Assembly: GCA_025526915.1 (NCBI GenBank)
Contig: JAHLKH010000050.1
Span: forward strand, 89,570-153,569
DNA from: Entophlyctis helioformis
Taxonomy: Eukaryota; Chytridiomycota; Chytridiomycetes; Chytridiales; Chytriomycetaceae
Reading direction: 5' to 3'
DNA: 64,000 nt
Made by a program: the position numbers and the translations under genes. The notes beneath the pieces were generated by a model. That model did not search any database and was not told where the DNA came from. It saw only the letters and a list, made by a program, of their open reading frames with translations. Below, in pieces: positions 38,556-59,580 of the stretch. Numbering within the stretch: the first letter of the stretch is position 1; each line of letters starts with the position of its first letter.

Positions 38556-38764
38556 CTCCCCTCCATCCCTGGCCTTTTACAGCTTCGCAGGCCTTTTCAA
38601 TAAAACCATCACCATCCCCATTCCCACGGGAACGCGTCGCCTCCTCCATCTCTCCGGGCAGGGGGGGAACAATCGCCTGCACCGCTGGCCATGCACCGCT
38701 GGCCCCTGTCTCGTGGATGTGTCCGAGTCCACTCTTTCCCCTCGATCCGTCAACTCAATTCATC

Positions 38765-39730: not shown

Positions 39731-39884
39731 TCGGTGACACAATAAACTTTTCTTGGTGAGTCAGCCGGTCGGTGACTCTGTCGGTACGTCGGTCGGTTTC
39801 AATCCGAATTTTTCCACTCGCGTGTGCGTGTTGAATGCGGCTTGCGGCGGGGTTGCCCACACAACGACAAAAACAACAACAGCC

Positions 39885-40856
39885 ATGACGCTTGGGTCAG
39901 TGTTCAAGCAGGTGTTTACCTATCCCTCGTGGTTCTGGTCCGTCGAGAAGCTGCCGTCGCTCGAGGACAAGGTCGCCATCGTGACGGGTGCCTCGGCCGG
40001 TCTCGGCAAGCTCACAGCCCTCGAGCTCGCTCGCAAGGGTGCGCACGTGTTCTGCGTTGGCCGCTCGGCTTCCAAGACGCAGGCTGTCGTCGACGACATC
40101 AAGGCCGAGACGGGCAATGACAAGGTCGAGATGCTGCTCGCTGACTTTATGGACCTGGCTGCCGTCGAGGCCGCCGCCGACGCCTTCCTTGCTCGCGGTC
40201 TGTCCCTCGACATCCTTGTCAACAACGCCGGCGTGATGGGCCTGCCGTGGCAAGTGTCCAAGCAGGGGATCGAGTCGCAGTTTGCCGTGAACGTCTTTGC
40301 AACGACCGTCTTTACCATGCGGCTGCTGCCGGCCATCAAGAAGGCGTCGACGTCGCGCATCGTCAACCTGTCGAGCATCCTCCACGCGAGCGCCAAGACG
40401 GGCATCTCGTACGAGACGTTCAACGACAAGTCCGTGTTTGACACGATGGAGCACTACAACGAGACCAAGCTCGCGGCCATCCATTTCACGCGCGAGCTGC
40501 AGCGGCGGCTGGAGGCGGCCGGCGTGTCGCATGTCCTGGTCAACGCCGTGCATCCGGGTGTGGTCAAGACGGATCTCTTTCACATGGTGCCCGACGACAT
40601 GTGGCAGTCGGTTGCCGGCCGCATCGGTCGCTTCATGATGATCCCGCCCGAGAGCGGCGCCGTCACGCAGATCTACGTTGCTGGTGCCGCCGACATCGAG
40701 GCCAAGCAGATCCGTGCCAAGTACTTTGTGCCGTACGCGGCAATGGCGACACCGAGCAAGATCGCTTTGGATGCCGTGGCGGCCAAGAAGACGTGGGACT
40801 GGATGCAGGAGATCCTGCAGAAGCAGTACCGCGGCGACTGGTCGTACGGGCTCTGA
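39885..40856 (+). CDS. Short-chain dehydrogenase/reductase, tandem copy 2
   Basis: 323 residues, no intron. Its own N-terminus is MTLGSVFKQVFTYPSWFWS. From VAIVTGASAGLGK on, it is the same protein as copies 3 and 4. TGASAGLGK, NNAGV and YNETK are all present. The sequence from about 39,970 through the 3' flank (AATAAA at 40902-40907) matches the copies downstream. Confidence 0.9.
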   Translation: MTLGSVFKQVFTYPSWFWSVEKLPSLEDKVAIVTGASAGLGKLTALELARKGAHVFCVGRSASKTQAVVDDIKAETGNDKVEMLLADFMDLAAVEAAADAFLARGLSLDILVNNAGVMGLPWQVSKQGIESQFAVNVFATTVFTMRLLPAIKKASTSRIVNLSSILHASAKTGISYETFNDKSVFDTMEHYNETKLAAIHFTRELQRRLEAAGVSHVLVNAVHPGVVKTDLFHMVPDDMWQSVAGRIGRFMMIPPESGAVTQIYVAGAADIEAKQIRAKYFVPYAAMATPSKIALDAVAAKKTWDWMQEILQKQYRGDWSYGL

Positions 40857-40954
40857 GACCTCTCCTCTGTCGTGGCGTCTTGTACCTGTTGTGTCGTGTC
40901 TAATAAAATGAGCTGCTTGATAATCGTTATCTTTGCCAATCAGTCTTATCCACC

Positions 40955-41920
40955 ATGACGGTCCTGTCGCTCATCACTCAGACATTCACCTATCCCTCGT
41001 GGTCCGTCGACCGGCTGCCGTCGCTCGTCGGAAAGGTCGCCATCGTGACGGGTGCCTCGGCCGGTCTCGGCAAGCTCACGGCCCTCGAGCTCGCTCGCAA
41101 GGGTGCGCATGTGTTCTGCGTTGGCCGCTCGGCTTCCAAGACACAGGCTGTCGTGGACGACATCAAGGCCGAGACGGGCAATGACAAGGTCGAGATGCTG
41201 CTCGCTGACTTTATGGACCTGGCTGCCGTCGAGGCCGCCGCCGACGCCTTCCTTGCTCGCGGTCTGTCCCTCGACATCCTTGTCAACAACGCCGGCGTGA
41301 TGGGCCTGCCGTGGCAAGTGTCCAAGCAGGGGATCGAGTCGCAGTTTGCCGTGAACGTCTTTGCAACGACCGTCTTTACCATGCGGCTGCTGCCGGCCAT
41401 CAAGAAGGCGTCGACGTCGCGCATCGTCAACCTGTCGAGCATCCTCCACGCGAGCGCCAAGACGGGCATCTCGTACGAGACGTTCAACGACAAGTCCGTG
41501 TTTGACACGATGGAGCACTACAACGAGACCAAGCTCGCGGCCATCCATTTCACGCGCGAGCTGCAGCGGCGGCTGGAGGCGGCCGGCGTGTCGCATGTCC
41601 TGGTCAACGCCGTGCATCCGGGTGTGGTCAAGACGGATCTCTTTCACATGGTGCCCGACGACATGTGGCAGTCGGTTGCCGGCCGCATCGGTCGCTTCAT
41701 GATGATCCCGCCCGAGAGCGGCGCCGTCACGCAGATCTACGTTGCTGGTGCCGCCGACATCGAGGCCAAGCAGATCCGTGCCAAGTACTTTGTGCCGTAC
41801 GCGGCAATGGCGACACCGAGCAAGATCGCTTTGGATGCCGTGGCGGCCAAGAAGACGTGGGACTGGATGCAGGAGATCCTGCAGAAGCAGTACCGCGGCG
41901 ACTGGTCGTACGGGCTCTGA
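40955..41920 (+). CDS. Short-chain dehydrogenase/reductase, tandem copy 3
   Basis: 321 residues, starting MTVLSLITQTFTYPSWSVDR. The protein is identical to copy 4. All SDR motifs are intact (TGASAGLGK, NNAGV, YNETK). Within about 41,080-41,160 it carries silent variants shared with copy 5, not with copies 2 and 4. Confidence 0.92.
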   Translation: MTVLSLITQTFTYPSWSVDRLPSLVGKVAIVTGASAGLGKLTALELARKGAHVFCVGRSASKTQAVVDDIKAETGNDKVEMLLADFMDLAAVEAAADAFLARGLSLDILVNNAGVMGLPWQVSKQGIESQFAVNVFATTVFTMRLLPAIKKASTSRIVNLSSILHASAKTGISYETFNDKSVFDTMEHYNETKLAAIHFTRELQRRLEAAGVSHVLVNAVHPGVVKTDLFHMVPDDMWQSVAGRIGRFMMIPPESGAVTQIYVAGAADIEAKQIRAKYFVPYAAMATPSKIALDAVAAKKTWDWMQEILQKQYRGDWSYGL

Positions 41921-42018
41921 GACCTCTCCTCTGTCGTGGCGTCTTGTACCTGTTGTGTCGTGTCTAATAAAATGAGCTGCTTGATAATCGTTATCTTTGC
42001 CAATCAGTCTTATCCACC

Positions 42019-42984
42019 ATGACGGTCCTGTCGCTCATCACTCAGACATTCACCTATCCCTCGTGGTCCGTCGACCGGCTGCCGTCGCTCGTCGGAAAGG
42101 TCGCCATCGTGACGGGTGCCTCGGCCGGTCTCGGCAAGCTCACAGCCCTCGAGCTCGCTCGCAAGGGTGCGCACGTGTTCTGCGTTGGCCGCTCGGCTTC
42201 CAAGACGCAGGCTGTCGTCGACGACATCAAGGCCGAGACGGGCAATGACAAGGTCGAGATGCTGCTCGCTGACTTTATGGACCTGGCTGCCGTCGAGGCC
42301 GCCGCCGACGCCTTCCTTGCTCGCGGTCTGTCCCTCGACATCCTTGTCAACAACGCCGGCGTGATGGGCCTGCCGTGGCAAGTGTCCAAGCAGGGGATCG
42401 AGTCGCAGTTTGCCGTGAACGTCTTTGCAACGACCGTCTTTACCATGCGGCTGCTGCCGGCCATCAAGAAGGCGTCGACGTCGCGCATCGTCAACCTGTC
42501 GAGCATCCTCCACGCGAGCGCCAAGACGGGCATCTCGTACGAGACGTTCAACGACAAGTCCGTGTTTGACACGATGGAGCACTACAACGAGACCAAGCTC
42601 GCGGCCATCCATTTCACGCGCGAGCTGCAGCGGCGGCTGGAGGCGGCCGGCGTGTCGCATGTCCTGGTCAACGCCGTGCATCCGGGTGTGGTCAAGACGG
42701 ATCTCTTTCACATGGTGCCCGACGACATGTGGCAGTCGGTTGCCGGCCGCATCGGTCGCTTCATGATGATCCCGCCCGAGAGCGGCGCCGTCACGCAGAT
42801 CTACGTTGCTGGTGCCGCCGACATCGAGGCCAAGCAGATCCGTGCCAAGTACTTTGTGCCGTACGCGGCAATGGCGACACCGAGCAAGATCGCTTTGGAT
42901 GCCGTGGCGGCCAAGAAGACGTGGGACTGGATGCAGGAGATCCTGCAGAAGCAGTACCGCGGCGACTGGTCGTACGGGCTCTGA
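42019..42984 (+). CDS. Short-chain dehydrogenase/reductase, tandem copy 4
   Basis: 321 residues, identical in protein to copy 3 and exactly 1,064 bp downstream. N-terminus and 5' flank are of the copy 3/5 type, while silent sites in the first third match copy 2. All catalytic motifs are intact. Confidence 0.92.
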   Translation: MTVLSLITQTFTYPSWSVDRLPSLVGKVAIVTGASAGLGKLTALELARKGAHVFCVGRSASKTQAVVDDIKAETGNDKVEMLLADFMDLAAVEAAADAFLARGLSLDILVNNAGVMGLPWQVSKQGIESQFAVNVFATTVFTMRLLPAIKKASTSRIVNLSSILHASAKTGISYETFNDKSVFDTMEHYNETKLAAIHFTRELQRRLEAAGVSHVLVNAVHPGVVKTDLFHMVPDDMWQSVAGRIGRFMMIPPESGAVTQIYVAGAADIEAKQIRAKYFVPYAAMATPSKIALDAVAAKKTWDWMQEILQKQYRGDWSYGL

Positions 42985-43082
42985 GACCTCTCCTCTGTCG
43001 TGGCGTCTTGTACCTGTTGTGTCGTGTCTAATAAAATGAGCTGCTTGATAATCGTTATCTTTGCCAATCAGTCTTATCCACC

Positions 43083-44042
43083 ATGACGGTCCTGTCGCTC
43101 ATCACTCAGACATTCACCTATCCCTCGTGGTCCGTCGACCGGCTGCCGTCGCTCGTCGGAAAGGTCGCCATCGTGACGGGTGCCTCGGCCGGTCTCGGCA
43201 AGCTCACGGCCCTCGAGCTCGCTCGCAAGGGTGCGCATGTGTTCTGCGTTGGCCGCTCGGCTTCCAAGACACAGGCTGTCGTGGACGACATCAAGGCCGA
43301 GACGGGCAATGACAAGGTCGAGCTGCTACTCGCCGACTTTATGGACCTGGCTGCCGTCGAGGCCGCCGCCGACGCCTTTCTCAGCCGCCGCCTCACGCTA
43401 GACATTCTCGTCAACAACGCCGGCGTCGGGCCCTACCCATGGGAGATGACAGCCATCGGCACCGAAGCCCGGTTCACCATCAACCACTTCTCGCCCGTCG
43501 TCTTCACGATGCGGCTCCTGCCCGCTCTGCAACGGGCCCGGTGTGCACGGATCGTCAACATGTCGTCCATGGCGCACATGGCAGCGTACAGCGGTATCCA
43601 GTACGACCGTCTGAACGACCGGACAGCGCACGCCGTCCGCTACGGGGAGACCAAGCTGGCGGCCATCCATTTCACGCGCGAACTGCAGCGGCGGCTGGAG
43701 GATGCCGGCATCACCAACATCCTCGTCAACGCCGTGCACCCGGGCGCTGTGCGCACGGCCATCTTCAACCCGGCGCACGAGGCCTTTTGGGGCAGCTGTC
43801 TGGGCGCCGCCGTCCTGTGGCTCATGATCCCGCCCGAGGCCGGTGCGCTCACGCAGATCTACGTGGCGGCCGACCCGGAGATTGAGCGACTGCAGGCCCG
43901 CGGCGAGTACTTTGTGCCGTACGCCGCTATTGGCCAGCCGCTTGCTGTTGCCACAAACGACAAGGCCGCTGGCCGGACGTGGGAATGGACGCAAGAGATC
44001 CTGCGCAAGCATTACCGCAGCGACTGGTCGTATGGGCTGTAG
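43083..44042 (+). CDS. Short-chain dehydrogenase/reductase, tandem copy 5 (chimeric)
   Basis: 319 residues. From the start to about 43,323 it is nearly identical to copy 3. It then diverges into a distinct SDR body (NNAGVGPYPWEMTAIGTEA, YGETK, GSCLGAAVLWLMIPPEAGAL), closer in places to copy 1. All catalytic motifs are kept, so it should be active, perhaps on another substrate. Confidence 0.9.
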   Translation: MTVLSLITQTFTYPSWSVDRLPSLVGKVAIVTGASAGLGKLTALELARKGAHVFCVGRSASKTQAVVDDIKAETGNDKVELLLADFMDLAAVEAAADAFLSRRLTLDILVNNAGVGPYPWEMTAIGTEARFTINHFSPVVFTMRLLPALQRARCARIVNMSSMAHMAAYSGIQYDRLNDRTAHAVRYGETKLAAIHFTRELQRRLEDAGITNILVNAVHPGAVRTAIFNPAHEAFWGSCLGAAVLWLMIPPEAGALTQIYVAADPEIERLQARGEYFVPYAAIGQPLAVATNDKAAGRTWEWTQEILRKHYRSDWSYGL

Positions 44043-44411
44043 ATGCCACGAATTGAATGCCTGTCTCTTGGTCGACTGTCTTTGCATGTCGTGCGATCGG
44101 AGGAGGCAGCCAGCTTGTCCACACATTGCTCCACGCGGCGACGTTCAAGACGCATGGCGCTGTCCGACCAACACACGGGTCTGGCCATGCCATGCCATGC
44201 CATGCCATGCCATGCCGTGGCTGCTGGAGGAGAGCGCACTGTCCAGCAGCCGAGTGTCCAGCCCATCAACAACTGCCACTAGACACACACACACACAGAG
44301 AGAGAGAGGCAGACACAAGGGACAGATGCGGTGCAAAGCGACTTGGGTTGTATTGGGATGATGTGTCCATACACAGCGACAACAGCAGCAGCAACAGCAA
44401 CAGCAACCGGC
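44043..44411. other. 3' flanks and outer edge of inverted repeat (left)
   Basis: No gene. The inverted repeat starts at about 44,088-44,101. A CATGC pentamer repeat lies at about 44,187-44,216, and AC then AG dinucleotide runs at 44,283-44,310. Confidence 0.6.
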
Positions 44412-44933
44412 TCACAGCACGAGCGCAGCAGCAACGGCAGCACCAACGGCAGCAACGACGCTGCCGGCCACACGGCCAGCGCCAGAGTACACGGCCTCGG
44501 CGTTGTATGCATCGTCGTACGCCTGGGTGGCAGCGGGCGTGGCAGCAGGCGTCTCCTTGGCAGCGGGCTTGTCACCGTCCTTGCCGTAGTAGCCGCCAGC
44601 AGCGGGGGTGGGCTCGGGTGCAGGCGTCTCCTTGGGAACAGCGGGCTTGTCGCCGTCCTTGCCGTAGTAGCCGCCGGCAGCAGGCGTGGCGGAAGGCGTG
44701 GCAGCCGGCGTCTCCTTGCCGTAGTAGCCGGCACCGGCGACAGTGGTTGCAACAACAACGGGAGCAACAGTCGAGGCAGCAGCAGCCTTGGTGGTCGTGG
44801 CAGCAGCAACCGTGGTGGCAGCAACCGTGGTGGCAGCAACCGTGGTGGTGGTGGTGCAGTCGTCGGCCCTGTAGAAGACGGCCTCAGCAGAGGCGACGGC
44901 GACAAGAGCAGAGAGGATGACAGCGGCGTGCAT
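44412..44933 (-). CDS. Secreted GPI-type surface protein with YYGK/ETPA repeats (left copy)
   Basis: 173 residues. Signal peptide [18 protein letters not shown], then a Thr/Ala-rich stretch, then [16 protein letters not shown] and two [14 protein letters not shown] repeats. It ends in a small-residue and hydrophobic tail ([19 protein letters not shown]) typical of GPI attachment. It is probably heavily O-glycosylated at the cell surface or wall. It is the shorter allele-like copy of the gene at 51625. Confidence 0.82.
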
Positions 44934-45578
44934 GTTGTGTGTGTTTGTGTGTGTGTGGGTCGGTGTCTATGCGATGAGTGAGGCAAGTCTGCTCGAATGC
45001 GAGAGTTGCTGGTGCACCGAAACAAGCGGCGAAACTTGTGCAAACAAGCGTCGGATCGCAGACGCGGCTCATCCATCGCGGCTGAATGCGGCGCGTTTTG
45101 CGTCATCAAACAGCGTCACGTGTGCGTGTGGCTTGGATGGACAGAGGGATGGATGGATGGATGGATGGATGGATGGATGGATGGATGGATGGATGGATGG
45201 ATGGATGGACAGCGTGGCATGACACTCACGCCACGATCGCCTGCCATTCATCTCTGGCCAAGTGGCTGTGGTTGCTGTCTGCTGTCTGCTGTCTGCTGCC
45301 TTGTTGTCTGCTGCGTGTCGCACTTGGCGATGGATGGCTGCTGCCCGTCTGGCCGTGGCAGACAGCCCAGCCACTGGCACCTTTGCTCAGCATGACTGCA
45401 AACAGCTTGAACAGCGTGACCCAGCAACGGAACACACGGGACACACTGGCCAGTGAATGTGACTGCAAAAAGAGCAATGTGATGGGCAACGCAAACTGAA
45501 GAAATATGAACCGGCTTTCATTGGGAAGATGCAAGATACAGAGTGATGTGAAAGGTTTCGACTGCCTGCAGAGTGCCG
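44934..45578. other. Intergenic within left arm, with GGAT satellite
   Basis: Promoter of the 44412 gene and 3' flank of the 45579 gene. The GGAT satellite fills about 45,148-45,208, followed by CTGTCTG repeats near 45,275-45,300. No gene seen. Confidence 0.6.
45148..45208 (+). repeat. GGAT tetranucleotide satellite (short version)
   Basis: About 15 GGAT units. The mirror site in the right arm (51,289-51,430) is more than twice as long, with two GGACAGAG-type interruptions. Confidence 0.9.
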
Positions 45579-46184
45579 TTAGAAGGCCATGACGGCAACG
45601 GCAGCGGCAATCACTGCGACCGCGCCAGACACGGCCGTGCGGCCGGCAGACGACACGATGGCCTCGGTGTTCTCGCCGGGGATGCCGTACGTGGCGGGCT
45701 GCGTGCCCTCGGCACCAGGCTCGGCGAGCGACGCGGGCGTCGGGGCGGGCGTCTCGTCGTCGTCGCAGGGCGTCTCGTCGTCACCAGACGCGGTGTGCGT
45801 GGCATCGGGAGTGGCAGCGGGAGTCTCGGCGGGAGTCTCGCATGGCGTCTCGGCAGGACCGGCAGGCGTGTCAGGCTTGGGAGCAGGCGTCTCGGCAGGC
45901 GTCGATCCCTCGGTGCAGGGGGTCTCGGCGGGACCGGCAGGCGTGTCAGGCTTGGGAGCGGGAGTCTCGACAGGCGTGGCGGCAGGCGTCTCGGCGCAAG
46001 GAGTCTCGGCGGGGCCGGCAGGCGTGTCGGGCTTGGGTGCAGGCGTCTCGGCAGGGCCGGCCGGAACGTCGGTGCACGGCGTGGCAGCAGGCGTGGCGGC
46101 AGGCGTCTCGGCCGGACCGGGAATGTATGCACCGAGAACGGCGGGGACAAAGGCGGCAAGAGCGAGGATGGCAGAGGTGCGCAT
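45579..46184 (-). CDS. Secreted GPI-type surface protein with AGPAETPAPKPDTP repeats (left copy)
   Basis: 201 residues. Signal peptide MRTSAILALAAFVPAVLG, then about four repeats of PAETPAPKPDTPAGPAETPC with regularly placed Cys. An acidic stretch follows (SGDDETPCDDDETP), then a GPI-type tail (GAVAVIAAAVAVMAF). TATA-like sequence lies about 95 bp upstream. The protein is identical to that of the gene at 50316 in the other arm. Confidence 0.85.
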   Translation of the reverse strand: MRTSAILALAAFVPAVLGAYIPGPAETPAATPAATPCTDVPAGPAETPAPKPDTPAGPAETPCAETPAATPVETPAPKPDTPAGPAETPCTEGSTPAETPAPKPDTPAGPAETPCETPAETPAATPDATHTASGDDETPCDDDETPAPTPASLAEPGAEGTQPATYGIPGENTEAIVSSAGRTAVSGAVAVIAAAVAVMAF

Positions 46185-46595
46185 GTTGGTCTAGTAGTAG
46201 TAGGCGGTGGGTGGTGGTGGGTGGTGGGTGCTGTTGGGCGTGGAGCAAGACTGAATGCGGGACCCCCGCTCTGCATTTATACGCGCAGACGATCGGGTCC
46301 CCGCAGCATGCTGTGCTGAACACGTCAACGCTGAAACCCGCGTGCAGGTTTGCGCCGTTAAACTTTGCCGCAAGGGCACGCGGTGGCACCTTGTCACACC
46401 GCCGTCTGTGCTCAAGTCGCCACGGACGGTTGTGACGCTGCATGCAACGCCAACGCAGCTCTGCGCTCAAAAATGCACCAACAGCAACAACAACAGCAGC
46501 AACAAGCCATTCGTGCAAGTACACACAGAGCGTCACGCGGCGAACGTGCTGTGTTGCTGCAGTTGTATTGGCACGTCCGGTTGAATGACGCTTCA
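46185..46595. other. Intergenic: surface-protein promoter and MADS gene 3' flank (left arm)
   Basis: Contains the TATA box and a GTTGTTGCTGTTG-type repeat. It is nearly identical to 49,905-50,315. No gene supported. Confidence 0.6.
46275..46281 (-). promoter_or_regulatory. TATA box of the 45579 surface-protein gene
   Basis: ATTTATA reads TATAAAT on the minus strand, about 91 bp before the ATG. The same element occurs at the mirror position in the right arm. Most other genes here lack one. Confidence 0.65.
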
Positions 46596-49247
46596 TTATG
46601 GCAAGCGCTCTGAATCGTCTGCATCGTCGCGCATGGCACGGCGCTCATGATCATATTCTTGTGGCTGTTGCGGCTGTTGCGGTCGTTGTTGTGTTGGTGG
46701 TGGATGTTGTCCTGAATCGTCAGCATCTGGCGCATGTGGAAACAGGCGTTGGTCGGCATGCAAGCCGGTGGGCTGCTGTTGCTGTTGCTGTTGCTGCGAC
46801 TGCTGCTGTTCGTACTGCTCTGGCGGCTGATACGGCTGGTGCGGTTGGTGCGGCTGCTGCTGTCCGTGCCGGTCGTATTCATGTGCTTCATGCGCTGCAT
46901 CTGGCGTCGTCGCAGAAGTGCCAAACTGGCCACCAGTTGAAGGCGACGGACCTGCACGAGGCGGGTAGTGTTTAGCTGCAGACTGGGGCGTGCCGTTGTA
47001 TGGTGGGGTATACGCCTGCCGGGCCGTCATGCCATTGGGGTGCGGCAGTGAGCTTCCAGTCGCATGTGGGGTGTATGGCACCTGGCTGCGAATGTCTTCG
47101 TGTTCTTGGCTGAGCACACGCGGACGGGCACGCGTTTGATCATGGCCTTGGTGCTGGCCTTGCAGGCCACTCACATCAGTGTACGTCGGCATGGACGGGC
47201 GATCGTGGCTATACTCGTGCGCATCACCTTGTCCGTACAGTTGCTGGCCCTGGCTGTATCCGTTGTGGTGCTGTTGCTGTTGTGGATCGAGTCGTTGAGT
47301 ATGCGGCTGTCTGTAGGATCCTGGATGCTGCAACTGGTAAGATGGCTGCTGCTGTTGCTGCTGTTGCTGATTCTCGGATGGCGGGTAACTTTCACGATAC
47401 TGAACGTGCTGCGGCTCGGATTGGGACATGTAGTGGCCGCCGTGGCTGTTTCCAACCAGCTTGAGTGTTGTCAATGCTGGCAGATGCGTCGGGAATGAAG
47501 GATTCGTACTGCTGCTTGCTGGCGTTGTTGGCCGCGATATCTGACTGTACTGCGGAAGCGGCTGCTGGCTTGGGGCGTATCCATGCGGTGGTTGAGTAAG
47601 CGGCGGCAATGCAGTCGAGTCCCTGCCTGGCGGACTGACATATTCTGCCGATCCAGACATGGGCTCGCCTGCAAGTGCATTGGGCACGGGTGCGCCTTGC
47701 TGATAATGCGACATTCGTTGTCTTGGATGATGCGGGTGCTGCTGGTACTGTTCAGGGTAGTGGTGCTGGTGGTGGATCTGCGACTGTCGCTGATATTGCT
47801 GCGGCTGTTGCGCACCAAGTGGCTGCTGCTTATTCGGATCGTATGCTGCAGAGATGGGGCGAGGGCGAGGATGCAGAGCGTTTTGGCGCTGCATTTGCTG
47901 GTGTTGCATCTGGTCTGGATAGGAGGGGTTTGCCGAATGTGGCATAGCGATGGCGGGCAGCACACGACCTGCTGTGGTTGCGCGCTGAGCCTGCTGAGCC
48001 TGCTGATGCTGCTGATGTTGCTTTTGGTGAAGTTGCTGTTGCTGCTGGGCATGGGCAGCCAGAGGCCGCGCACTGGATTCCGCATCTGCAACCGGCGGTA
48101 GTGTTGGGGCCGGGACCCTTTCCGGGGCTTGTGCATGAATGGGTTGCTGGGGTGGGATATGTGCTTTAGAAGCGGCTTCCGGCTTGGCTTTGACGCCTTT
48201 CCCCGTCTTGGAAACCTTGAGCGGCTGGACCAAGTTGGCAGCCTGGACGGAACGTGCTGCGTTGGTGACGGCAACGGCAGCCGCAGCGCCGTCCGATGCG
48301 TTCAAACACGCCTGAATGAGCGACTTGCCCTCTGGCTTGGTGATCAGCGGCTGCAGCTTGGGCGTGGCAAACGTGTACACATGGCCGGTTTCGGACGCGA
48401 CCAGGAGAAGCACCTGCGTGCCCGTCAGCGTCGAAAGCTCGTATGCCTTTTTCAGGATCCCCGTTTTGCGCTTGGAGAAGGTGATGTGACGGCGCGACTT
48501 GTCCGAGATGAACTCGATCTTGATCTTGCGCCGGCCGCCTTTTCGTTTCGGTGCTTCTCCGTCGTCATCGTCGTCGTCATCGCCGCCTTCCATGATCATG
48601 CCGTTGTCATCAACGCTCGTTGTCACAAAGTCGATGTTGATTGACTCGCCCGAGGCGGCCTCTTGGTCTGCGTCTGCGTCGATGTCTGCGTCACCGTTGC
48701 CGTCGAGAGCTGTGCTCGGATCGTGAGCCTGTGCTGGCCGATTGGCTTCAGTCGTGAGAGAATCGGGACGATGCTCGGGCTGAATCTCGGGCCGCTGGTG
48801 TGGCAGATCCTGCTGCTGATGCTGGGGCCTCTGGACTGACAGATCCTGCTGCTGTTGCTGCTGCTGCCCATACGATCCGAGTGCTGCATGTGCTGGTTGA
48901 GGGTACAAGTGCCCGGCTGCATTGTTTGTTGGCTCGGCTTGATAGTTGACACTATTGGGCAATATGGAGGCGCTGCCAACGACTGTGCTCGTGCCCTGGG
49001 GCTGGCTGCAGTACTCCTGATGCTGCTGGTACTCCTGATGCTGCTGGTGAGGCTGCTGCTGCTGCTGCTGCTGCTGCTGGTAGTTGACGGTGTCGACATG
49101 CGCTTCTTCGGTGTCGAGGCCAGCCTCGAGCGCCGACCGCTTGTTGTGGTTCGGCTGTGGCACACTCGGCTGCACGGGCAGCTGCTGCTCAGCGGCCGCC
49201 TCCGCAACCTCTGTGGCAGCATGTTCCGTGGGTAAGTGGCGGTCCAT
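46596..49247 (-). CDS. SRF-type MADS-box transcription factor (Mcm1-like), Gln-rich
   Basis: 883 residues, single exon. The N-terminus is Gln/His-rich. An acidic run (GGDDDDDDDGEAPKRK) precedes the MADS domain at about residues 236-295: GGRRKIKIEFISDKSRRHIT, FSKRKTGILKKAYELSTLTG, TQVLLLVASETGHVYTFATP, KLQPLITKPEGKSLIQACL. This is the type I SRF/Mcm1 form (KAYELSTLTGTQVLLLVASE), not MEF2. The remaining ~550 residues are Gln/Tyr/Pro/His-rich, probably a disordered activation region, ending DHERRAMRDDADDSERLP. The gene fills the spacer between the two inverted arms, and its last ~64 codons lie in the left arm, so its C-terminus exists twice in the window. Confidence 0.93.
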   Translation of the reverse strand: MDRHLPTEHAATEVAEAAAEQQLPVQPSVPQPNHNKRSALEAGLDTEEAHVDTVNYQQQQQQQQQPHQQHQEYQQHQEYCSQPQGTSTVVGSASILPNSVNYQAEPTNNAAGHLYPQPAHAALGSYGQQQQQQQDLSVQRPQHQQQDLPHQRPEIQPEHRPDSLTTEANRPAQAHDPSTALDGNGDADIDADADQEAASGESINIDFVTTSVDDNGMIMEGGDDDDDDDGEAPKRKGGRRKIKIEFISDKSRRHITFSKRKTGILKKAYELSTLTGTQVLLLVASETGHVYTFATPKLQPLITKPEGKSLIQACLNASDGAAAAVAVTNAARSVQAANLVQPLKVSKTGKGVKAKPEAASKAHIPPQQPIHAQAPERVPAPTLPPVADAESSARPLAAHAQQQQQLHQKQHQQHQQAQQAQRATTAGRVLPAIAMPHSANPSYPDQMQHQQMQRQNALHPRPRPISAAYDPNKQQPLGAQQPQQYQRQSQIHHQHHYPEQYQQHPHHPRQRMSHYQQGAPVPNALAGEPMSGSAEYVSPPGRDSTALPPLTQPPHGYAPSQQPLPQYSQISRPTTPASSSTNPSFPTHLPALTTLKLVGNSHGGHYMSQSEPQHVQYRESYPPSENQQQQQQQQPSYQLQHPGSYRQPHTQRLDPQQQQHHNGYSQGQQLYGQGDAHEYSHDRPSMPTYTDVSGLQGQHQGHDQTRARPRVLSQEHEDIRSQVPYTPHATGSSLPHPNGMTARQAYTPPYNGTPQSAAKHYPPRAGPSPSTGGQFGTSATTPDAAHEAHEYDRHGQQQPHQPHQPYQPPEQYEQQQSQQQQQQQQPTGLHADQRLFPHAPDADDSGQHPPPTQQRPQQPQQPQEYDHERRAMRDDADDSERLP

Positions 49248-49709
49248 GCTCGACGGTAACAGCGGGAATGCGGCACAGCAGCGCCAGACTCGCTAGAGGC
49301 ATGGTAGTTGCCGTGCACGGCACAGACGCACACACCTGCGGCGAGCGACAGAAACGCCATCCCGGGACTGTCTCGTTGGCTCATGCCGTTTTTGGAAAGT
49401 GCGATCGGAAGGATCCGTGGTTCAAAAACGGTTCAGAGTGGACGTTGGTGGCTGGAAGGCAGGCCGCGTTGGAAGGCATGCAACTGGATGGGAGCATGCA
49501 GCGCCGTGATATCTGCAAGGTGCGCTTGCGTGGCTGGGTGTTGGCTGTCTACAGAGTGTTTCATCTGCCAGATCGACACGGTGGCCTTGAGACGCACTAG
49601 ATGTGCGGCGTCCAGTGGTTGAGCCTGCTGTCCGTATGATGCCCTCAGAGGCGTGTCCATCATGAGACATGAGGTTGAATGCTGAGTGGCTTTAATGTGC
49701 TTAGTATGT
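49248..49709. promoter_or_regulatory. Upstream region of the MADS gene
   Basis: About 460 bp of non-repeated spacer between the MADS start and the right arm. Open frames here have no recognisable content. It would hold the MADS promoter. Confidence 0.5.
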
Positions 49710-49904
49710 CAACAGCAGCAACAGCCCACCGGCTTGTATGCCGACCAACGCCAGTTTCCACATGCACCAGATGCTGATGATTCGGGACAACCTCCACAAC
49801 AACAGCAACCACAACCACCGCAACAGCCGCAACAGCCGCAAGAAAATGATCATGAGCGCCGTGCCATGCACGACGATGCAGACGGTTCAGAGCGCTTGCC
49901 ATAA
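49710..49904 (+). pseudogene. Second copy of the MADS-factor C-terminal tail (no MADS domain attached)
   Basis: 64 codons plus TAA that parallel the end of the MADS protein: QPTGLYADQRQFPHAPDADD against QPTGLHADQRLFPHAPDADD, and NDHERRAMHDDADGSERLP against YDHERRAMRDDADDSERLP. The frame is open to the same stop. The copy begins in the Gln run. It is more diverged than the rest of the arm. As placed, it has no start or promoter of its own. Confidence 0.85.
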
Positions 49905-50315
49905 TGAAGCGTCATTCAACCGGACGTGCCAATACAACTGCAGCAACACAGCACGTTCGCCGCGTGACGCTCTGTGTGTACTTGCACGAATGGCTTGTTG
50001 CTGCTGTTGTTGTTGCTGTTGGTGCATTTTTGAGCGCAGAGCTGCGTTGGCGTTGCATGCAGCGTCACAACCGTCCGTGGCGACTTGAGCACAGACGGCG
50101 GTGTGACAAGGTGCCACCGCGTGCCCTTGCGGCAAAGTTTAACGGCGCAAACCTGCACGCGGGTTTCAGCGTTGACGTGTTCAGCACAGCATGCTGCGGG
50201 GACCCGATCGTCTGCGCGTATAAATGCAGAGCGGGGGTCCCGCATTCAGTCTTGCTCCACGCCCAACAGCACCCACAACACACCACCACCCACCACCTAC
50301 TACTACTAGACCAAC
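49905..50315. other. Intergenic: surface-protein promoter (right arm)
   Basis: Mirror of 46,185-46,595. Contains the TATA box for the gene at 50316; no gene supported. Confidence 0.6.
50219..50225 (+). promoter_or_regulatory. TATA box of the 50316 surface-protein gene
   Basis: TATAAAT, 91 bp before the ATG, mirrored at 46275-46281. Confidence 0.65.
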
Positions 50316-50921
50316 ATGCGCACCTCTGCCATCCTCGCTCTTGCCGCCTTTGTCCCCGCCGTTCTCGGTGCATACATTCCCGGTCCGGCCGAGACGCCTG
50401 CCGCCACGCCTGCTGCCACGCCGTGCACCGACGTTCCGGCCGGCCCTGCCGAGACGCCTGCACCCAAGCCCGACACGCCTGCCGGCCCCGCCGAGACTCC
50501 TTGCGCCGAGACGCCTGCCGCCACGCCTGTCGAGACTCCCGCTCCCAAGCCTGACACGCCTGCCGGTCCCGCCGAGACCCCCTGCACCGAGGGATCGACG
50601 CCTGCCGAGACGCCTGCTCCCAAGCCCGACACGCCTGCCGGTCCTGCCGAGACGCCATGCGAGACTCCCGCCGAGACTCCCGCTGCCACTCCCGATGCCA
50701 CGCACACCGCGTCTGGTGACGACGAGACGCCCTGCGACGACGACGAGACGCCCGCCCCGACGCCCGCGTCGCTCGCCGAGCCTGGTGCCGAGGGCACGCA
50801 GCCCGCCACGTACGGCATCCCCGGCGAGAACACCGAGGCCATCGTGTCGTCTGCCGGCCGCACGGCCGTGTCTGGCGCGGTCGCAGTGATTGCCGCTGCC
50901 GTTGCCGTCATGGCCTTCTAA
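50316..50921 (+). CDS. Secreted GPI-type surface protein with AGPAETPAPKPDTP repeats (right copy)
   Basis: 201 residues, identical to the protein at 45579-46184: same signal peptide, Cys-spaced Pro/Thr/Glu repeats and GPI-type tail. Identity of two full copies, while the inner arm ends have diverged, suggests recent duplication or ongoing gene conversion. Confidence 0.87.
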   Translation: MRTSAILALAAFVPAVLGAYIPGPAETPAATPAATPCTDVPAGPAETPAPKPDTPAGPAETPCAETPAATPVETPAPKPDTPAGPAETPCTEGSTPAETPAPKPDTPAGPAETPCETPAETPAATPDATHTASGDDETPCDDDETPAPTPASLAEPGAEGTQPATYGIPGENTEAIVSSAGRTAVSGAVAVIAAAVAVMAF

Positions 50922-51624
50922 CGGCACTCTGCAGGCAGTCGAAACCTTTCACATCACTCTGTATCTTGCATCTTCCCAATGAAAGCCGGTTCATATTTCT
51001 TCAGTTTGCGTTGCCCATCACATTGCTCTTTTTGCAGTCACATTCACTGGCCAGTGTGTCCCGTGTGTTCCGTTGCTGGGTCACGCTGTTCAAGCTGTTT
51101 GCAGTCATGCTGAGCAAAGGTGCCAGTGGCTGGGCTGTCTGCCACGGCCAGGTGGGCAGCAGCCATCCATCGCCAAGTGCGACACGCAGCAGACAACAAG
51201 GCAGCAGACAGCAGACAGCAGACAGCAACCACAGCCACTTGGCCAGAGATGAATGGCAGGCGATCGTGGCGTGAGTGTCATGCCACGCTGTCCATCCATC
51301 CATCCATCCATCCATCCATCCATCCATCCATCCATCCATCCATCCATCCATCCATCCATCCATCCATCCATCCATCCATCCATCCATCCCTCTGTCCATC
51401 CATCCATCCATCCCTCTGTCCATCCAAGCCACACGCACACGTGACGCTGTTTGATGACGCAAAACGCGCCGCATTCAGCCGCGATGGATGAGCCGCGTCT
51501 GCGATCCGGCGCTTGTTTGCACAAGTTTCGCCGCTTGTTTCGGTGCACCAGCAACTCTCGCATTCGAGCAGACTTGCCTCACTCATCGCATAGACACCGA
51601 CCCACACACACAAACACACACAAC
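50922..51624. other. Intergenic within right arm, with CATC satellite
   Basis: Mirror of 44,934-45,578 with an expanded satellite at 51,289-51,430. No gene seen. Confidence 0.6.
51289..51430 (+). repeat. CATC tetranucleotide satellite (expanded version)
   Basis: About 30 CATC units interrupted twice by CCTCTGTC. It is the reverse complement of the shorter GGAT array in the left arm. Confidence 0.9.
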
Positions 51625-52218
51625 ATGCACGCCGCTGTCATCCTCTCTGCTCTTGTCGCCGTCGCCTCTGCCGAGGCCGTCTTCTACAGGGCCGACGACT
51701 GCACCACCACCACCACGGTTGCTGCCACCACGGTTGCTGCCACCACGGTTGCTGCCACCACGGTTGCTGCTGCCACGACCACCAAGGCTGCTGTTGCCTC
51801 GACTGTTGCTCCCGTTGTTGTTGCAACCACTGTCGCCGGTGCCGGCTACTACGGCAAGGAGACGCCGGCTGCCACGCCTTCCGCCACTCCCGCTGTTGGT
51901 GGCTACTACGGCAAGGAGACGCCGGCTGCCACGCCTTCCGCCACGCCTGCTGCCGGCGGTTACTACGGCAAGGACGGCGACAAGCCCGCTGTTCCCAAGG
52001 AGACGCCTGCACCCGAGCCCACCCCCGCTGCTGGCGGCTACTACGGCAAGGACGGTGACAAGCCCGCTGCCAAGGAGACGCCTGCTGCCACGCCCACTGC
52101 CACCCAGGCGTACGACGATGCATACAACGCCGAGGCCGTGTACTCTGGCGCTGGCCGTGTGGCCGGCAGCGTCGTTGCTGCCGTTGGTGCTGCCGTTGCT
52201 GCTGCGCTCGTGCTGTGA
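51625..52218 (+). CDS. Secreted GPI-type surface protein with YYGK/ETPA repeats (right copy)
   Basis: 197 residues against 173 in the left copy. Signal peptide and GPI tail are the same. The difference is extra VAATT repeats and one more [16 protein letters not shown] unit, both in frame. The start is chosen as the ATG that opens the signal peptide, not the longer open frame back to 51451. Confidence 0.85.
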
Positions 52219-53329
52219 GCCGGTTGCTGTTGCTGTTGCTGCTGCTGTTGTCGCTGTGTATGGACACATCATCCCAATACAACCCAAGTCGCTTTGCACC
52301 GCATCTGTCCCTTGTGTCTGCCTCTCTCTCTGTGTGTGTGTGTGTGTCTAGTGGCAGTTGTTGATGGGCTGGACACTCGGCTGCTGGACAGTGCGCTCTC
52401 CTCCAGCAGCCACGGCATGGCATGGCATGGCATGGCATGGCATGGCCAGACCCGTGTGTTGGTCGGACAGCGCCATGCGTCTTGAACGTCGCCGCGTGGA
52501 GCAATGTGTGGACAAGCTGGCTGCCTCCTCCTCTTCCACCTGTCCGATCGCACGACTGTGTCATTGCGGGCGACAACACCCTCCAGATCGTGTCAGCGGA
52601 CACGACACAACATGGGCGAACGTTGAGCCCACGACGAGCGTCGCTGGTGGCCAGAGGAGAGACACAAGGGAGAGAGACGCTGCGAGGACAAGGCTGCTGG
52701 CCAGCGTCGGCGGGGGGTCGTCTGAGCAGGACCAGGCAGTGAGGACCGGCAGCAGCGCAACGCAGTCAGACGACGTAAAACAGCACTGAAGCAAACGCCG
52801 TTCGTCAACAATGGCCCAAAATTGCTCAGAATGATCGTGAGGCGCAAGAGTCGCAAGCTTGGTCGCTCGCTCGCTCAGTCCGTTCGTCGGTTTGTCGGCC
52901 CGTTAGCAGGCTTACACGCTCAGTCGCAATTTTGCAACGCCACCGCCGCCCGCTCTGTCGCCCGTGCAAGTTGTTGAGCGAAACGCGGCAACGTGCATGC
53001 CAATTTGCTCAACCACGAGGACCGTCAAACTCTCTCATCTCATTTTCGCCAAATATGGCAATATTTCGTCGACACAGACGGGCACTTGAACGCCGCCGCT
53101 CGCTGCGTCGCTCCATGCCTTGGCGTCGGTTAAAAGGCTGGAGGGGCCCCGCAGTGACTTGCAACCCATCCCACCACCTTAGACTACAGGTAAGCCGAGC
53201 AGCCCAGCCGGCAGCCCAGCCAGCGCCCGCATCTGTCTGTTCTTGTGGTGCACAGCACTCTGCCCTGCTGGATTGCCAACGAATGCACCATGCTGACCAC
53301 GACGACGACGACGACGACGCTGCACAGAC
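52219..53329. other. Intergenic: right-arm outer edge and promoter of the 53330 gene
   Basis: About 1.1 kb. It contains AC/AG dinucleotides and a CATGC-type pentamer run at about 52,410-52,445 (mirror of 44,187-44,216), then unique sequence. A TTAAAAGG TATA-like element near 53,129 and an apparent 5'-UTR intron (53190-53327) precede the next gene. No coding gene supported. Confidence 0.55.
53190..53327 (+). other. Probable 5'-UTR intron of the 53330 surface-protein gene
   Basis: CTACAG|GTAAGC donor and GCTGCACAG acceptor end 2 nt before the ATG. The intron contains a GAC repeat. Confidence 0.6.
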
Positions 53330-54879
53330 ATGAAGTTCACTGCTGCCACCATCGTTGCTGCCCTCGCCGCCTCGGCCGTTGCCCTCCCCGCCCACGTCGC
53401 CTACCCTGGTGCCGACGACACTCCCGCCGTCTACGGCAAGGAGACCCCCGCCCCCAAGCCCGAGCCCAGCCCCGCTGGCTACGGCAAGGACGCCCCTGCC
53501 CCCGCTGCCACCACCCCCGCTGGTGACAAGTACGGCAAGGAGACCCCTGCCCCCGAGCCCGAGACCCCCGCTGGCGGCTACTACGGCAAGGACTCTGAGG
53601 AGACCCCTGCCCCCAAGCCCGAGCCCGCTGGTGACAAGTACGGCAAGGACTCCAAGGAGACCCCCGCCCCTGAGCCCGAGACCCCCGCCGGCGGTTACTA
53701 CGGCAAGGACTCCAAGGAGACCCCCGCTCCCGAGGCCGAGACCACCCCCGCCGACAAGTACGGCAAGGGTGCCGAGACTCCCGCCCCCAAGAAGAAGTGT
53801 GTCCCCAAGACCAAGGGCACCGGCAAGGAGACCCCCGCTCCTGAGCCCACCCCCGCTCCCTACGGCAAGGACTCCAAGGAGACCCCCGCCCCCGAGCCTG
53901 CCACCACCCCCTCTGGTGACAAGTACGGCAAGGAGACCCCTGCCCCCGAGCCCACCCCCGCTCCCTACGGCAAGGACGGCAAGGAGACCCCTGCCCCTGA
54001 GGCCGACAAGTACGGCAAGGAGACCCCCGCCCCCGAGCCTGCCACCACCCCCGCTGGTGACAAGTACGGCAAGGAGACCCCCGCCCTGAGCCTGCTCCCG
54101 CCACCACCCCTTGCGACGGCAAGAACGGCAAGGAGACCCCCGCCCCCGAGCCCACCCCCGCTCCCTACGGCAAGGACGGCAAGGAGACCCCTGCCCCTGA
54201 GGCCGACAAGTACGGCAAGGAGACCCCCGCCCCCGAGCCTGCCACCACCCCCGCTGGTGACAAGTACGGCAAGGAGACCCCCGCCCCTGAGCCTGCTCCC
54301 GCCACCACCCCTTGCGACGGCAAGAACGGCAAGGAGACCCCCGCCCCCGAGCCCACCCCTGCTCCCTACGGCAAGGACGGCAAGGAGACCCCTGCCCCTG
54401 AGGCCGACAAGTACGGCAAGGAGACCCCCGCCCCCGAGCCTGCCACCACCCCCGCTGGTGACAAGTACGGCAAGGAGACCCCCGCCCCTGAGCCTGCTCC
54501 CGCCACCACCCCTTGCGACGGCAAGAACGGCAAGGAGACCCCCGCCCCCGAGCCCACCCCTGCTCCCTACGGCAAGGACGGCAAGGAGACCCCCGCTCCC
54601 GAGGCTGCCACCACCCCTTGCGACGGTGACAAGGCCAAGGCCACCCCCGCTGCCGAGCCCACCCCCGCTGCCTACGGCAAGGACGGTAAGCCCGCCGAGA
54701 CCCCCGCCCCCGAGGCCGACAAGTACGGCAAGGGTGCCGAGACTCCCGCTGCCACCCCCGCTGCCACTCAGGCTTACGGTGATGCCTACGACAAGGCCGA
54801 GAACATCGTTTCCGGCGCTGCCCGCACCGGTGTCTCCATCGTCGCCCTTGTTGGTGCCGTTGCCGTCATGATGTTCTAA
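53330..54879 (+). CDS. Secreted GPI-type surface protein with [11 protein letters not shown] repeats, frameshifted
   Basis: Signal peptide MKFTAATIVAALAASAVALP, then many [22 protein letters not shown] repeats, a Cys/Lys patch (KKKCVPKTKG), and three long repeat units of 67 codons containing [17 protein letters not shown]. It ends SIVALVGAVAVMMF with TAA at 54877. In the first long unit a C is missing (CCC at 54084-54086 where later units have CCCC). The written frame therefore turns into Pro/Arg nonsense, ending at 54871. Restoring the frame recovers the repeats and the GPI tail, so the gene is intact apart from this base. It shares motifs with the genes at 44412 and 51625. Confidence 0.85.
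54002..54603 (+). repeat. Three tandem 201-bp coding repeats (first is 200 bp)
   Basis: Starts at 54002, 54202 and 54403: periods of 200 and 201 bp. Sequence is near-identical; the 1-bp shortfall is the frameshift in the surface-protein gene. Confidence 0.9.
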
Positions 54880-55048
54880 GCCGACCCCGAAGTCCCTTTG
54901 CATCTCACATCCGTCTCTCTCTTAGAACCACTCTGTACGTAATGCATTCGAATGAATTCGCTTCAAGCATATGTGCAGGCCATGCTCTTTTATTGTGCAC
55001 CGTCGTTCAGCGCTTTCGAGTACGCGTATCCAGCGCGTCGCGTCTCGT

Positions 55049-55304
55049 TCACATCACCAGCAGCGTCGTCAATATGGCCGCCACGCCAGCCATGTACAGT
55101 GACATGGTGTTGGCACGGCTGCTTGAGACGAGCGGCGGTGCATCTGTGCTGCTCCGGTACGCTCCTGTGTTTGGGGGCGTCTGAGGGGCCGTGTTGAATC
55201 CTGCCTGCTGCCTCTGATACGAGCTGGACCCTGCTGTGCCTGCCGACGGCGTTGCGAGCGCAAGGGGCGTGGGCGTCTCACTGTCGGGCTCGCAGTCATC
55301 GCCA

Positions 55305-55335
<31 letters not shown>

Positions 55336-55696
55336 GTGTTTCCAGAACAACACGGCCGAGATTGCTGGCTTGAGTGCGCTCGGCGACCGGCGGCGTCTTG
55401 GCCGTGACGGTGATGACGGCAGGGCTGTCGTACGCAATGCCATAGCCCTTGGTCGATGTTGGCTGCACAGAAGGCGTCGGTGTGGAAGTCGGACTGGCCA
55501 CACCTGCAGCAATCAATGTCGTGGAGCATGGAGGCGTCTCCGTGACGAACGGCTCTCTTGGCGCGAGTGTTGCTGTTGCGACTGGCGATTCGCGTGCAGC
55601 TTCGGTGCCGTAATGCCTTGGTGCAACGGCACCAACGACTGCATTGGCAGACGTGGCTGCAAGCAGAGCGTGCATGACAAGTGTGCTGTGGTGCAT
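55049..55696 (-). CDS. Secreted Thr/Pro-rich protein with GPI-type tail
   Basis: 215 residues from MHHSTLVMHALLAATSANAV, a weak signal peptide (a longer frame upstream is not preferred). It is Thr/Pro/Ala-rich with ETPPCST, an Ala run and SDSETP-like acidic sequence, but lacks the YGK repeats. It ends MSLYMAGVAAILTTLLVM. It belongs to the surface-protein cluster by architecture more than by sequence. Confidence 0.7.
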
Positions 55697-55980
55697 CGAG
55701 TGGGTTGCTCGAGTGGGTTCAATGGCCAAGAGCAAGCAAGCAAGCAAGTACCTCAGAGTGGCATGCCAATCCAGCAGTCACATCCACGCCGTTGCGTCCA
55801 TTGTTGCCAGACAATGGGACAGCCATTGTTGCATGCTGGACAGGCCAACGACTTCGACGTAGCTTGGTGCACTCGGTGCACAGTCCAGGCAGCCATGGAC
55901 GCAGATCAACAAGAGTGTTTGCAAAGACATGCGGGGTTCATTGAGACAAAACAAGTACAAGAAGGAGCGAGCAAGACCGC

Positions 55981-56994
55981 TTAGAAGACGAGAGCGGCAG
56001 CAACGGCGGCGGCAGCACCGGCGACAAACATGGACGCGGTGTTGCCACGGCCGCCCGAAAGGACGGGAGCAGAGTCGTCCGTCGAGAGGCTCGATGCGTC
56101 GACGTATGCGCCGGCGTACTGCGTGGCAGCAGGCGTCTCGGCAAGCTGCGGGGCAGGCGTCTCGTCGCAGTCCTCCTCGTCGGCAGGCGTGGTGGCAGGC
56201 GTCTCGGCAAGCTGGGCAGCGACGGCAGTCTCCTCAGCGCATGGGGTGGTGGTGGGAGCAGCGACGGCAGCGGGGGTCTCCTCGGAGCAGGGGGTCGTGG
56301 TGGGAGCAGCAACTGCGGCAGGAGTCTCCTCAGAGCAGGGAGTCGTGGTGGGAGCAGCGACGGCAGCGGGAGTCTCCTCAGAGCAGGGAGTGGTCTCGGC
56401 AGCCTTGGGCTTGGCAGCGTCGTAGTTGCGCTTGCGGTACTTCTTGGGTGCCTCGGCAGATCCAGTGCACGAGGGAGCCGCCTCGGCAGCGGGAGTCTCG
56501 CCAGAGAGGTTGGCAGCAGCAGCGGGAGTCTCGCCAGAGAGCGAGTTGGCGCCGTACGATCCGTAGCCCTTGCCGGCAGGAGTGGGCTCGGCATCCTTGG
56601 GCAGGTTCTGCGTGGTCGCAGGCGTCTCGGCGGGAGTCGCCTCGGCGGCGGCAGTGGTGGTCTTGGCGCGGCACTTGCGCTTGCCAGCAGAGGGAGTGGC
56701 CTCGGGAGTGGTGGTGGGCTCGGCATCCTTGGGAAGGTTCTGCGTGGTCACAGGCTCCTCGACGGGCTTGCCGTAGTAGCCCTTGCCGTAAATGGCAGCA
56801 GGAGTGGGCTCGGCGTCCTTGGGGAGGTTCTGCGTGTCAACAGGGGCGTCGTAGGCGTTGCCGTAGGGAGTGCCGGCGGGAGTGGCAGCGGGAGTGGCAG
56901 CAGGAGCAGCGTTGTAGCCGCCGTACTGCTTGGAGGGAGCAGCAACGACCGAGGTGGCGAGGAGGGCGAGGAGAGCGAAGTTGGCAGCGATCAT
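55981..56994 (-). CDS. Secreted GPI-type surface protein with QNLPKDAEPT and CSEETPAAVAAPTTTP repeats
   Basis: 337 residues. Signal peptide MIAANFALLALLATSVVAAP. Three TTQNLPKDAEPT repeats, YGKGYYGK, a basic Cys patch (GKRKCRAK), LSGETPA repeats, a basic stretch (KKYRKRNYD), then four PCSEETPAAVAAPTTT repeats. The tail [17 protein letters not shown] suits GPI attachment. A TATA-like element (TATAAG, minus strand) lies at 57101-57106, about 107 bp before the ATG. It shares YGK and ETPA elements with the neighbouring surface proteins. Confidence 0.85.
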   Translation of the reverse strand: MIAANFALLALLATSVVAAPSKQYGGYNAAPAATPAATPAGTPYGNAYDAPVDTQNLPKDAEPTPAAIYGKGYYGKPVEEPVTTQNLPKDAEPTTTPEATPSAGKRKCRAKTTTAAAEATPAETPATTQNLPKDAEPTPAGKGYGSYGANSLSGETPAAAANLSGETPAAEAAPSCTGSAEAPKKYRKRNYDAAKPKAAETTPCSEETPAAVAAPTTTPCSEETPAAVAAPTTTPCSEETPAAVAAPTTTPCAEETAVAAQLAETPATTPADEEDCDETPAPQLAETPAATQYAGAYVDASSLSTDDSAPVLSGGRGNTASMFVAGAAAAVAAALVF

Positions 56995-57693
56995 GATGAT
57001 ACAGGTGGGTTGGTGCGGAGTGGTAGCTGTATGTGCTTTACTGTATGCAGAGGCGCTGGTGGGCTGGATGGCGAGGAAGAGGGCGGGTCTCTGTCGCATT
57101 CTTATACGTCTGGCGCGAGTGGCCGGCCGCCGTGTGCACCAGAGCGCGCCTCGTGGAGCGCCTTCTGTTCTGAAACACGCCTGCGGCATGCGGCGCGCGT
57201 CCGACGCTTGGACGCACCTGATTGGCTGGCTGCTGGCCGAGTGGCGCGTGTGGCTCGTGCCGCTCTTGTGTCGCTTGTGTCGCTCTTTGAACGGCCCGGC
57301 GTTGACTGCGCCAGTGTGCCATCGGCCTGTGCCGCACAAAGCGGCCGCTCTCCGGCCGCGGCAAGCCGTGCACTCGTGCAGCCAGCAGCCGGCCTTGTTG
57401 CACCGATCGGTTGTCGCTGTTGCGGTCTGTGCCACGCAGTCTGCAGGCAGTCGGGCTGCTCTGTCACTGCCGCTCTGTCGTCTATCACTGCCGCTGACAG
57501 ACGAAGAGGCGGCCGCCCTGGAATACAGTGCCTTCATTGGCTTGCCGGTGTGACAGCCCGGACCCAGGCATGACTCAAATGACGACTTCACCATGACTCC
57601 ACAGGTGCAGTGTCAAAGTTGCACGGGCGGCAGCCATGCCATCCCTCGTCGCTGCTTGGTCTGAAAGCATCATCCGCGACGCCTGCCCCACAA
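56995..57693. other. Upstream region of the 55981 gene and 3' flank of the glycosyltransferase
   Basis: About 700 bp. TATA-like CTTATA at 57101-57106 (minus-strand gene). Open frames here lack recognisable content. Confidence 0.5.
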
Positions 57694-59422: not shown

Positions 59423-59499
59423 GCGGCAAGGCTCGACACGGCAAGGCACAACGCGGCAGAAGGCAACGAAAGAAACCCGAGTTGGCCAACGTGCTCGGC

Positions 59500-59505
59500 T
59501 TTATT
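59500..59505 (-). promoter_or_regulatory. Poly(A) signal of the citrate carrier
   Basis: TTTATT on the plus strand (AATAAA on minus), about 76 nt past the carrier stop. Confidence 0.6.
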
Positions 59506-59580
59506 GTGGCCTGTACTGGCCTGCAGATGAATGGATGGTGGATGGTGTGTATTGTATGCATTGCACTCATTGTCACAGGC

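Follow-up and report, generated by a model that had tools for sequence, protein, structure and literature searches.

Can a transcription factor gene that lies between two inverted repeats be turned round by recombination, and does it receive another C-terminus when this happens? The question is raised by a locus of the chytrid Entophlyctis helioformis (genome of 29.57 Mb in 482 contigs), where a MADS-box gene is located in the spacer between two inverted arms. We analyzed the locus in a window of 64,000 nucleotides, positions 89,570–153,569 of one contig (C50:89,570–153,569). Coordinates are window positions unless prefixed with the name of a contig, and C72 is another contig from this assembly. 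In a preliminary description of this DNA it was proposed that inversion of the spacer would join the gene in frame to a second version of its last codons, at the inner edge of the opposite arm. We found the spacer in both orientations in the assembly, and the same gene tail in both. With a probability of about 0.7, these results reflect a heterozygous flip/flop inversion, produced by crossing over between arms that are homogenized by gene conversion, with the second tail as a relic.

The inverted repeat and the MADS-box gene

Alignments identified two arms in inverted orientation, at a level well above chance. The left arm is located at 44,099–46,787 and the right arm at 49,710–52,531, and the spacer between them (46,788–49,709) is 2,922 bp long, in agreement with the inverted repeat and the spacer of about 2.9 kb in the preliminary description. 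The inner arms (45,134–46,787 versus 51,366–49,710) showed 98.3% identity over 1,658 bp and the outer arms (44,099–44,729 versus 52,531–51,901) 99.5% over 631 bp. The middle of the arms is rich in insertions and deletions (indels), with arrays that differ between the left and right copies. The innermost part of each arm is a diverged shoulder, which spans 173 bp in the left arm (46,615–46,787), where it represents the end of the MADS-box gene, and 176 bp in the right arm (49,710–49,885).

The gene is a poly-Gln rich open reading frame (ORF) of 883 amino acids on the minus strand (46,596–49,247). The only Pfam hit in the ORF is a MADS (SRF-TF) domain at residues 246–293 (48,369–48,512, minus strand), with a score of 72.9 bits compared to the curated cut-off of 26, and the closest solved structures are SRF and MCM1, which align across residues 233–322. 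Judged from these similarities, the predicted protein belongs to the Mcm1/SRF-type MADS transcription factors. Our search for SRF-TF domains in the genome gave three matches, two of which are the gene in the window and its counterpart on C72; the remaining domain is located at C5:62,904–63,014. A protein search with the MADS sequence yielded 814 matches, and E. helioformis was not among the names of the best 120, some of which were without a name.

The spacer in reverse orientation on a second contig

When the genome was searched with the spacer, another copy appeared at the beginning of contig C72. The first segment of this contig (C72:1–5,797) aligned in reverse to window 50,371–44,545 with 98.0% identity. 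It was followed by forward alignments of C72:5,165–10,650 to 51,363–56,866 (99.0%) and of C72:10,588–17,878 to 56,714–64,000 (99.2%). The change from reverse to forward suggests that C72 contains the same right flank, relative to which the spacer has been turned round. The contig is 119 kb long and continues unbroken from the spacer through the 2.8-kb arm into the right flank. Between the spacers of C50 and C72 we counted 10 substitutions and 3 indel events, and another 40 substitutions and 18 indel events were observed in the 12 kb at 52,011–64,000. Since the differences are scattered, we take C72 for a second version of this locus rather than a reshuffling of the same sequence. The assembly thus supports the earlier suggestion, made from the window alone, that the arms recombine and invert the spacer: the segment is found in both orientations and with single-nucleotide polymorphisms of its own, and an inversion has probably taken place.

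The second version could also represent a second locus, if a segmental duplication had placed a copy of the MADS unit in opposite orientation. This would not be foreign to the region, as C50 contains another near-identical inverted duplication at a distance of about 90 kb. However, C50 and C72 overlap without interruption at about 99% identity, from the arm up to the last bases of C50, and C72 then continues as single-copy sequence: the segment past the end of C50 (C72:17,850–22,449) had no matches apart from distant paralogues. No other left flank was found in the genome search. The left flank at 38,700–44,060 is single copy, with the next best matches at 67–78% (13 of 13 candidates scored). 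Furthermore, C72:10,588–13,422 is 98.9% identical to the window and 98.2% identical to the copy at 50.8 kb in C50, albeit by a small margin. A second locus is therefore very unlikely. The window at 20,000–26,000 was also single copy except for short or weak matches. Two small contigs used as genome queries gave many multi-copy, transposon-like matches. The single-copy flanks would fit a mostly collapsed diploid assembly that splits where the haplotypes differ in structure.

The probable position of the exchange

To locate the exchange, we typed the arms of C72 at the sites that distinguish the two arms of C50. For the tail we used the 17 substitution sites from column 45 onward in the arm alignment, which separate the gene tail from its copy. 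The gene tail in C72 was identical to the gene tail in the window at 17 of 17 sites. The tail copy, which in C72 is located at the far left, at the promoter-side end of the gene, was identical to the copy in the window at 16 of 17 sites, with a Tyr/Asn codon as the exception. A few further differences in the tail copy, one of them in the stop codon, were seen in the low-quality start of the contig. The proposed swap of the C-terminal tail upon inversion is not supported by this result, as the gene has kept its own tail and the other tail has remained at the opposite end of the spacer. Beyond the tail, the right arm of C72 was of the right type at 10 of the 12 substitution sites that separate the outer arms of C50. 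An arm that begins with the gene tail and is thereafter mostly of the right type carries the signature of a crossover beyond the stop codon. We conclude firmly for this contig that the exchange lies beyond the tail and outside the gene.

The crossover is most simply placed in a stretch of 391 bp that is identical between the arms (46,224–46,614, partner 49,886–50,276) and that starts directly beyond the last difference in the tail. Such a location is what the distribution of homology predicts, since identical runs do not exceed 24 bp within the tail, but reach 295, 331 and 524 bp outside it. Thus, the position of the exchange fits the long homology.

Several observations weigh against this interpretation, most of which would also be expected if the orientation in C72 was an assembly choice, that is, if a real second haplotype had its spacer misjoined through the near-identical arm. 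The change from left to right arm type falls within the 391 bp of identical sequence, precisely where a misjoin would be placed. The right arm of C72 is not pure, as it is left-like at 2 of the 12 outer substitution sites. Of the 6 indel blocks in the outer arm, 2 are private to C72, 2 are right-like (57 bp and 2 bp) and 2 are left-like, namely a 60-bp array difference and a 15-bp unit. A clean reciprocal exchange should have left sites of the left type at the start of C72, beyond the crossover, but the three outer left-arm sites reached by this low-quality sequence included 2 of the right type and 1 of the left type. It is possible that conversion tracts or errors at the contig end have blurred the exact crossover point. 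Another weakness is that C72 starts within the left arm, so that of the two inverted junctions the right one alone is assembled. Finally, the MADS-box gene in C72 has a one-base insertion after the MADS domain (C72 position approximately 2,188, window position approximately 48,192), which limits the frame to 359 amino acids, after which follows a second long frame. The insertion is either an error at the end of the contig or a broken (null) allele.

Indels are indeed concentrated at the contig ends. They are dense in the first 500 bases of C72, and 7 events, six of them of one base, are clustered in the last 280 bases of C50. This pattern would fit thinly covered long reads that are able to cross a 2.8-kb arm. 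Two observations argue against a misjoin. Firstly, both arms of C50 were assembled through with different array lengths, which suggests that the reads were probably able to cross them. Secondly, C72 passes from the spacer into the right flank without interruption, as described above. Overall, we consider a misjoined spacer unlikely, but it is the alternative to be taken most seriously, and a true inversion is our preferred explanation.

Likeness of the arms within and between the probable haplotypes

If conversion occurs between the arms, the two arms of one haplotype may resemble each other more than arms in the same position of different haplotypes. We compared the three full arms (C50 left, C50 right and C72 right) at ungapped sites only. 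The left and right outer arms of C50 were alike in 2,502 of 2,514 columns, and thereby slightly more similar than the right arms of C50 and C72, which were alike in 2,534 of 2,552 columns. A total of 25 outer-arm sites were variable, of which 13 united the two C50 arms, 10 united the two right arms and 2 united the right arm of C72 with the left arm of C50. The 13 sites uniting the C50 arms are the mark of homogenization within a haplotype. The comparison points to gene conversion between the arms, a modest indication given three full arms.

The gene tail and its copy

The tail of the MADS-box gene extends into the left arm with 63 sense codons and the stop codon (46,596–46,787, minus strand), and a partial copy of 195 bp is located at the inner edge of the right arm (49,710–49,904, plus strand). 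The copy is open, ends at the same stop codon and reads DADGSERLP at its end, where the gene reads DADDSERLP. In these respects the preliminary description was accurate, and so it was in stating that the copy has diverged beyond the outer arm: the tails are 89.6% alike (147 of 164 ungapped columns), as compared to 99.5% for the rest of the arm. In a codon alignment of the whole tail, we counted 18 substitutions and one 3-bp indel; 6 of the substitutions fall in synonymous codons and 12 in codons with an altered residue. The estimated divergence (dN 0.077, dS 0.203) combines the changes in both lineages, including that of the working gene.

It has been regarded as noteworthy that the copy has stayed open, but this is no more than expected by chance. 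We introduced 9 or 18 random substitutions into either tail in 20,000 runs. The frame remained open with the stop codon retained in a fraction of 0.56 (9 substitutions) or 0.34 (18 substitutions) of the runs for the gene tail, and 0.54 or 0.30 for the copy. The share of synonymous changes was at least as high as observed in 0.12 of 3,000 simulated runs, so constraint is not shown. Selection on the copy, which we considered as a candidate explanation for its open frame, is unsupported by these simulations. Neither the open frame nor the synonymous share is evidence, at the level of sequence, of an exon in use, and we read the copy as a truncated relic of the duplication, and not as a second ending. 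The tail itself looks unconserved, since nothing like it was seen by eye in the last 90 residues of 12 further MADS proteins, and a search of the last 60 residues of 127 proteins found a SERLP-like motif in the query alone.

These results bear on the hypothesis of a switchable transcription factor, in which inversion would connect the MADS-box gene to the other tail. The hypothesis draws on an open copy that has the same stop codon and begins with the same Gln codons, and on a spacer that occurs in both orientations. However, the tail is the same in both of the sampled arrangements, and with such short identical runs in the tail, a crossover that exchanges it should hardly ever occur. The open frame is at the level of chance, the ratio of 6 synonymous to 12 nonsynonymous changes is unexceptional, and the tail is unlike the C-termini of the 12 other MADS proteins inspected. 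For the two arrangements observed, in which the gene tail is unchanged and the crossover lies outside the gene, the switch is rejected, and as a general property of the locus it is extremely unlikely.

Genes in the arms and in the surrounding region

Each arm contains two genes. Arm gene A encodes a Thr/Pro-rich protein of 201 amino acids with hydrophobic ends, which is identical in the left copy (45,579–46,184, minus strand) and the right copy (50,316–50,921, plus strand). Arm gene B encodes a repeat protein of the same general kind, with 173 amino acids in the left copy (44,412–44,933, minus strand) and 197 amino acids in the right copy (51,625–52,218, plus strand), the number of repeats being different. 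Inspected by eye, the products appear to be secreted, GPI-anchor-like proteins. No Pfam family was identified for the arm genes tested (left A and right B), and a protein search with arm gene A gave no matches. The largest difference in length between the arms is due to a TGGA array, with 19 copies in the left arm (45,134–45,209) and 34 copies in the right arm (51,291–51,426).

More Thr/Pro-rich ORFs of the surface type are located on both strands at 53,330–57,600 and contain repeats of about 200 bp at 53.8–54.6 kb. The inverted repeat is thus located within a cluster of such genes. On the other side, at 39,885–44,042, there are four similar ORFs in tandem of the short-chain dehydrogenase kind (Pfam on one ORF). 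Two of these, at 40,955–41,920 and 42,019–42,984, encode the same protein, and remoter relatives are found elsewhere in the genome. The other inverted duplication on C50 pairs C50:50,762–56,868 with window 59,547–55,032 at 98–99% identity, one copy having about 1.2 kb of extra sequence. The copy in the window (55,032–59,547) contains a glycosyltransferase-61 gene (57,694–59,103) in addition to surface-type genes, and recombination between the two copies would invert about 90 kb. Farther away, domains of a Slowpoke-like (BK) potassium channel were identified at 15,425–17,107, here in a chytrid. A tmRNA was called by ARAGORN at 20,686–21,349, without a match in Rfam; in a eukaryote, this is very likely a false positive.

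A model for the inversion and comparison with known systems

In the model that we favor, an inverted duplication of about 2.7 kb with two cell-surface-type genes came to flank the MADS-box gene, and by the chance position of its breakpoint it would have included the last 64 codons of this neighbor. Gene conversion would since have kept the arms alike as far as the edge of the MADS tail, and would occasionally have been resolved as a crossover that turned the 2.9-kb spacer round. The strain may be heterozygous, with the gene pointing leftward in the C50 haplotype and rightward in the C72 haplotype; we infer both the heterozygosity and the causal role of gene conversion. Since the long identical stretches are located beyond the stop codon, crossovers are expected there, and the gene should take its promoter side and its tail along when it flips.

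The flip is probably near neutral, because the arms are mirror copies that keep about 2.7 kb of the surroundings of the MADS-box gene almost the same in either orientation. A stronger version would be that the flip is frequent and effective. The orientation would then set which pair of surface genes, and which flank, lies downstream of the MADS-box gene, rare crossovers or conversion in the tail would also yield MADS proteins with the other tail or a hybrid tail, and the population would carry, next to its cell-surface genes, a master regulator that varies itself. We regard this version as very unlikely indeed.

Our literature searches yielded nothing in print on this locus. Shufflon-type invertible genes consist of one gene body with alternative 3' ends in inverted orientation. 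This is the layout envisaged in the preliminary description, but in the chytrid the 3' end appears to travel with the body, and the exchange is placed in the long homology outside it. Human inversions at inverted repeats of 1.6–24 kb, such as FLNA-EMD, turn whole genes round, and for one of them, HsInv0209, the account in PMC3961182 locates the likeliest breakpoint at a distance from the genes, in 782 bp with 99.9% identity. The chytrid locus is similar in that the repeats overlap genes and the likely breakpoint is placed in identical sequence outside the MADS-box gene. The human cases are described there from population genotypes and PCR, whereas our result is drawn from two contigs. The mating-type switching of methylotrophic yeasts, as outlined in PMC9731477, likewise depends on inverted repeats in a fungus and involves regulatory genes; at the chytrid locus, neither mating-type genes nor position-dependent silencing were seen, although no test was aimed at either, and nothing points to regulation.

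The closest parallel is the flip/flop region on Saccharomyces chromosome XIV (Salzberg et al. 2022, PMC9731477). In that account, repeats of 4.2 kb with two genes each flank a segment of 24 kb and 15 genes that is found both ways; the arms are homogenized, and the inversion is regarded as a side effect of gene conversion, some events of which end in a crossover. It is further described from many strains and species, with recurrence shown and some diploid isolates heterozygous. The chytrid locus shares the near-identical inverted repeats of a few kb, the two genes in each repeat, the segment in both orientations and, probably, the homogenized arms and the heterozygosity, and from this analogy we have adopted conversion with crossover as the likely explanation. 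It differs in its arms of 2.7–2.8 kb, in its segment of 2.9 kb with one gene, and in being represented by one strain and one assembled inverted junction.

If confirmed, the chytrid locus would provide a flip/flop inversion of small size and at a great distance from the yeast case, in which the cargo is a regulatory gene and the homogenized arms carry genes. Toggles of this kind could then be expected to form where a gene is bracketed by an inverted duplication of a gene family. The tail would be a clean case of a coding-gene end that escapes conversion at the edge of a homogenized repeat, and a caution that an open partial copy should not be taken for an alternative exon. In comparison with the known systems, the locus is best read as an inverted-repeat-mediated (flip/flop) inversion of the type known from Saccharomyces, of which a switch of tails does not seem to be a part.

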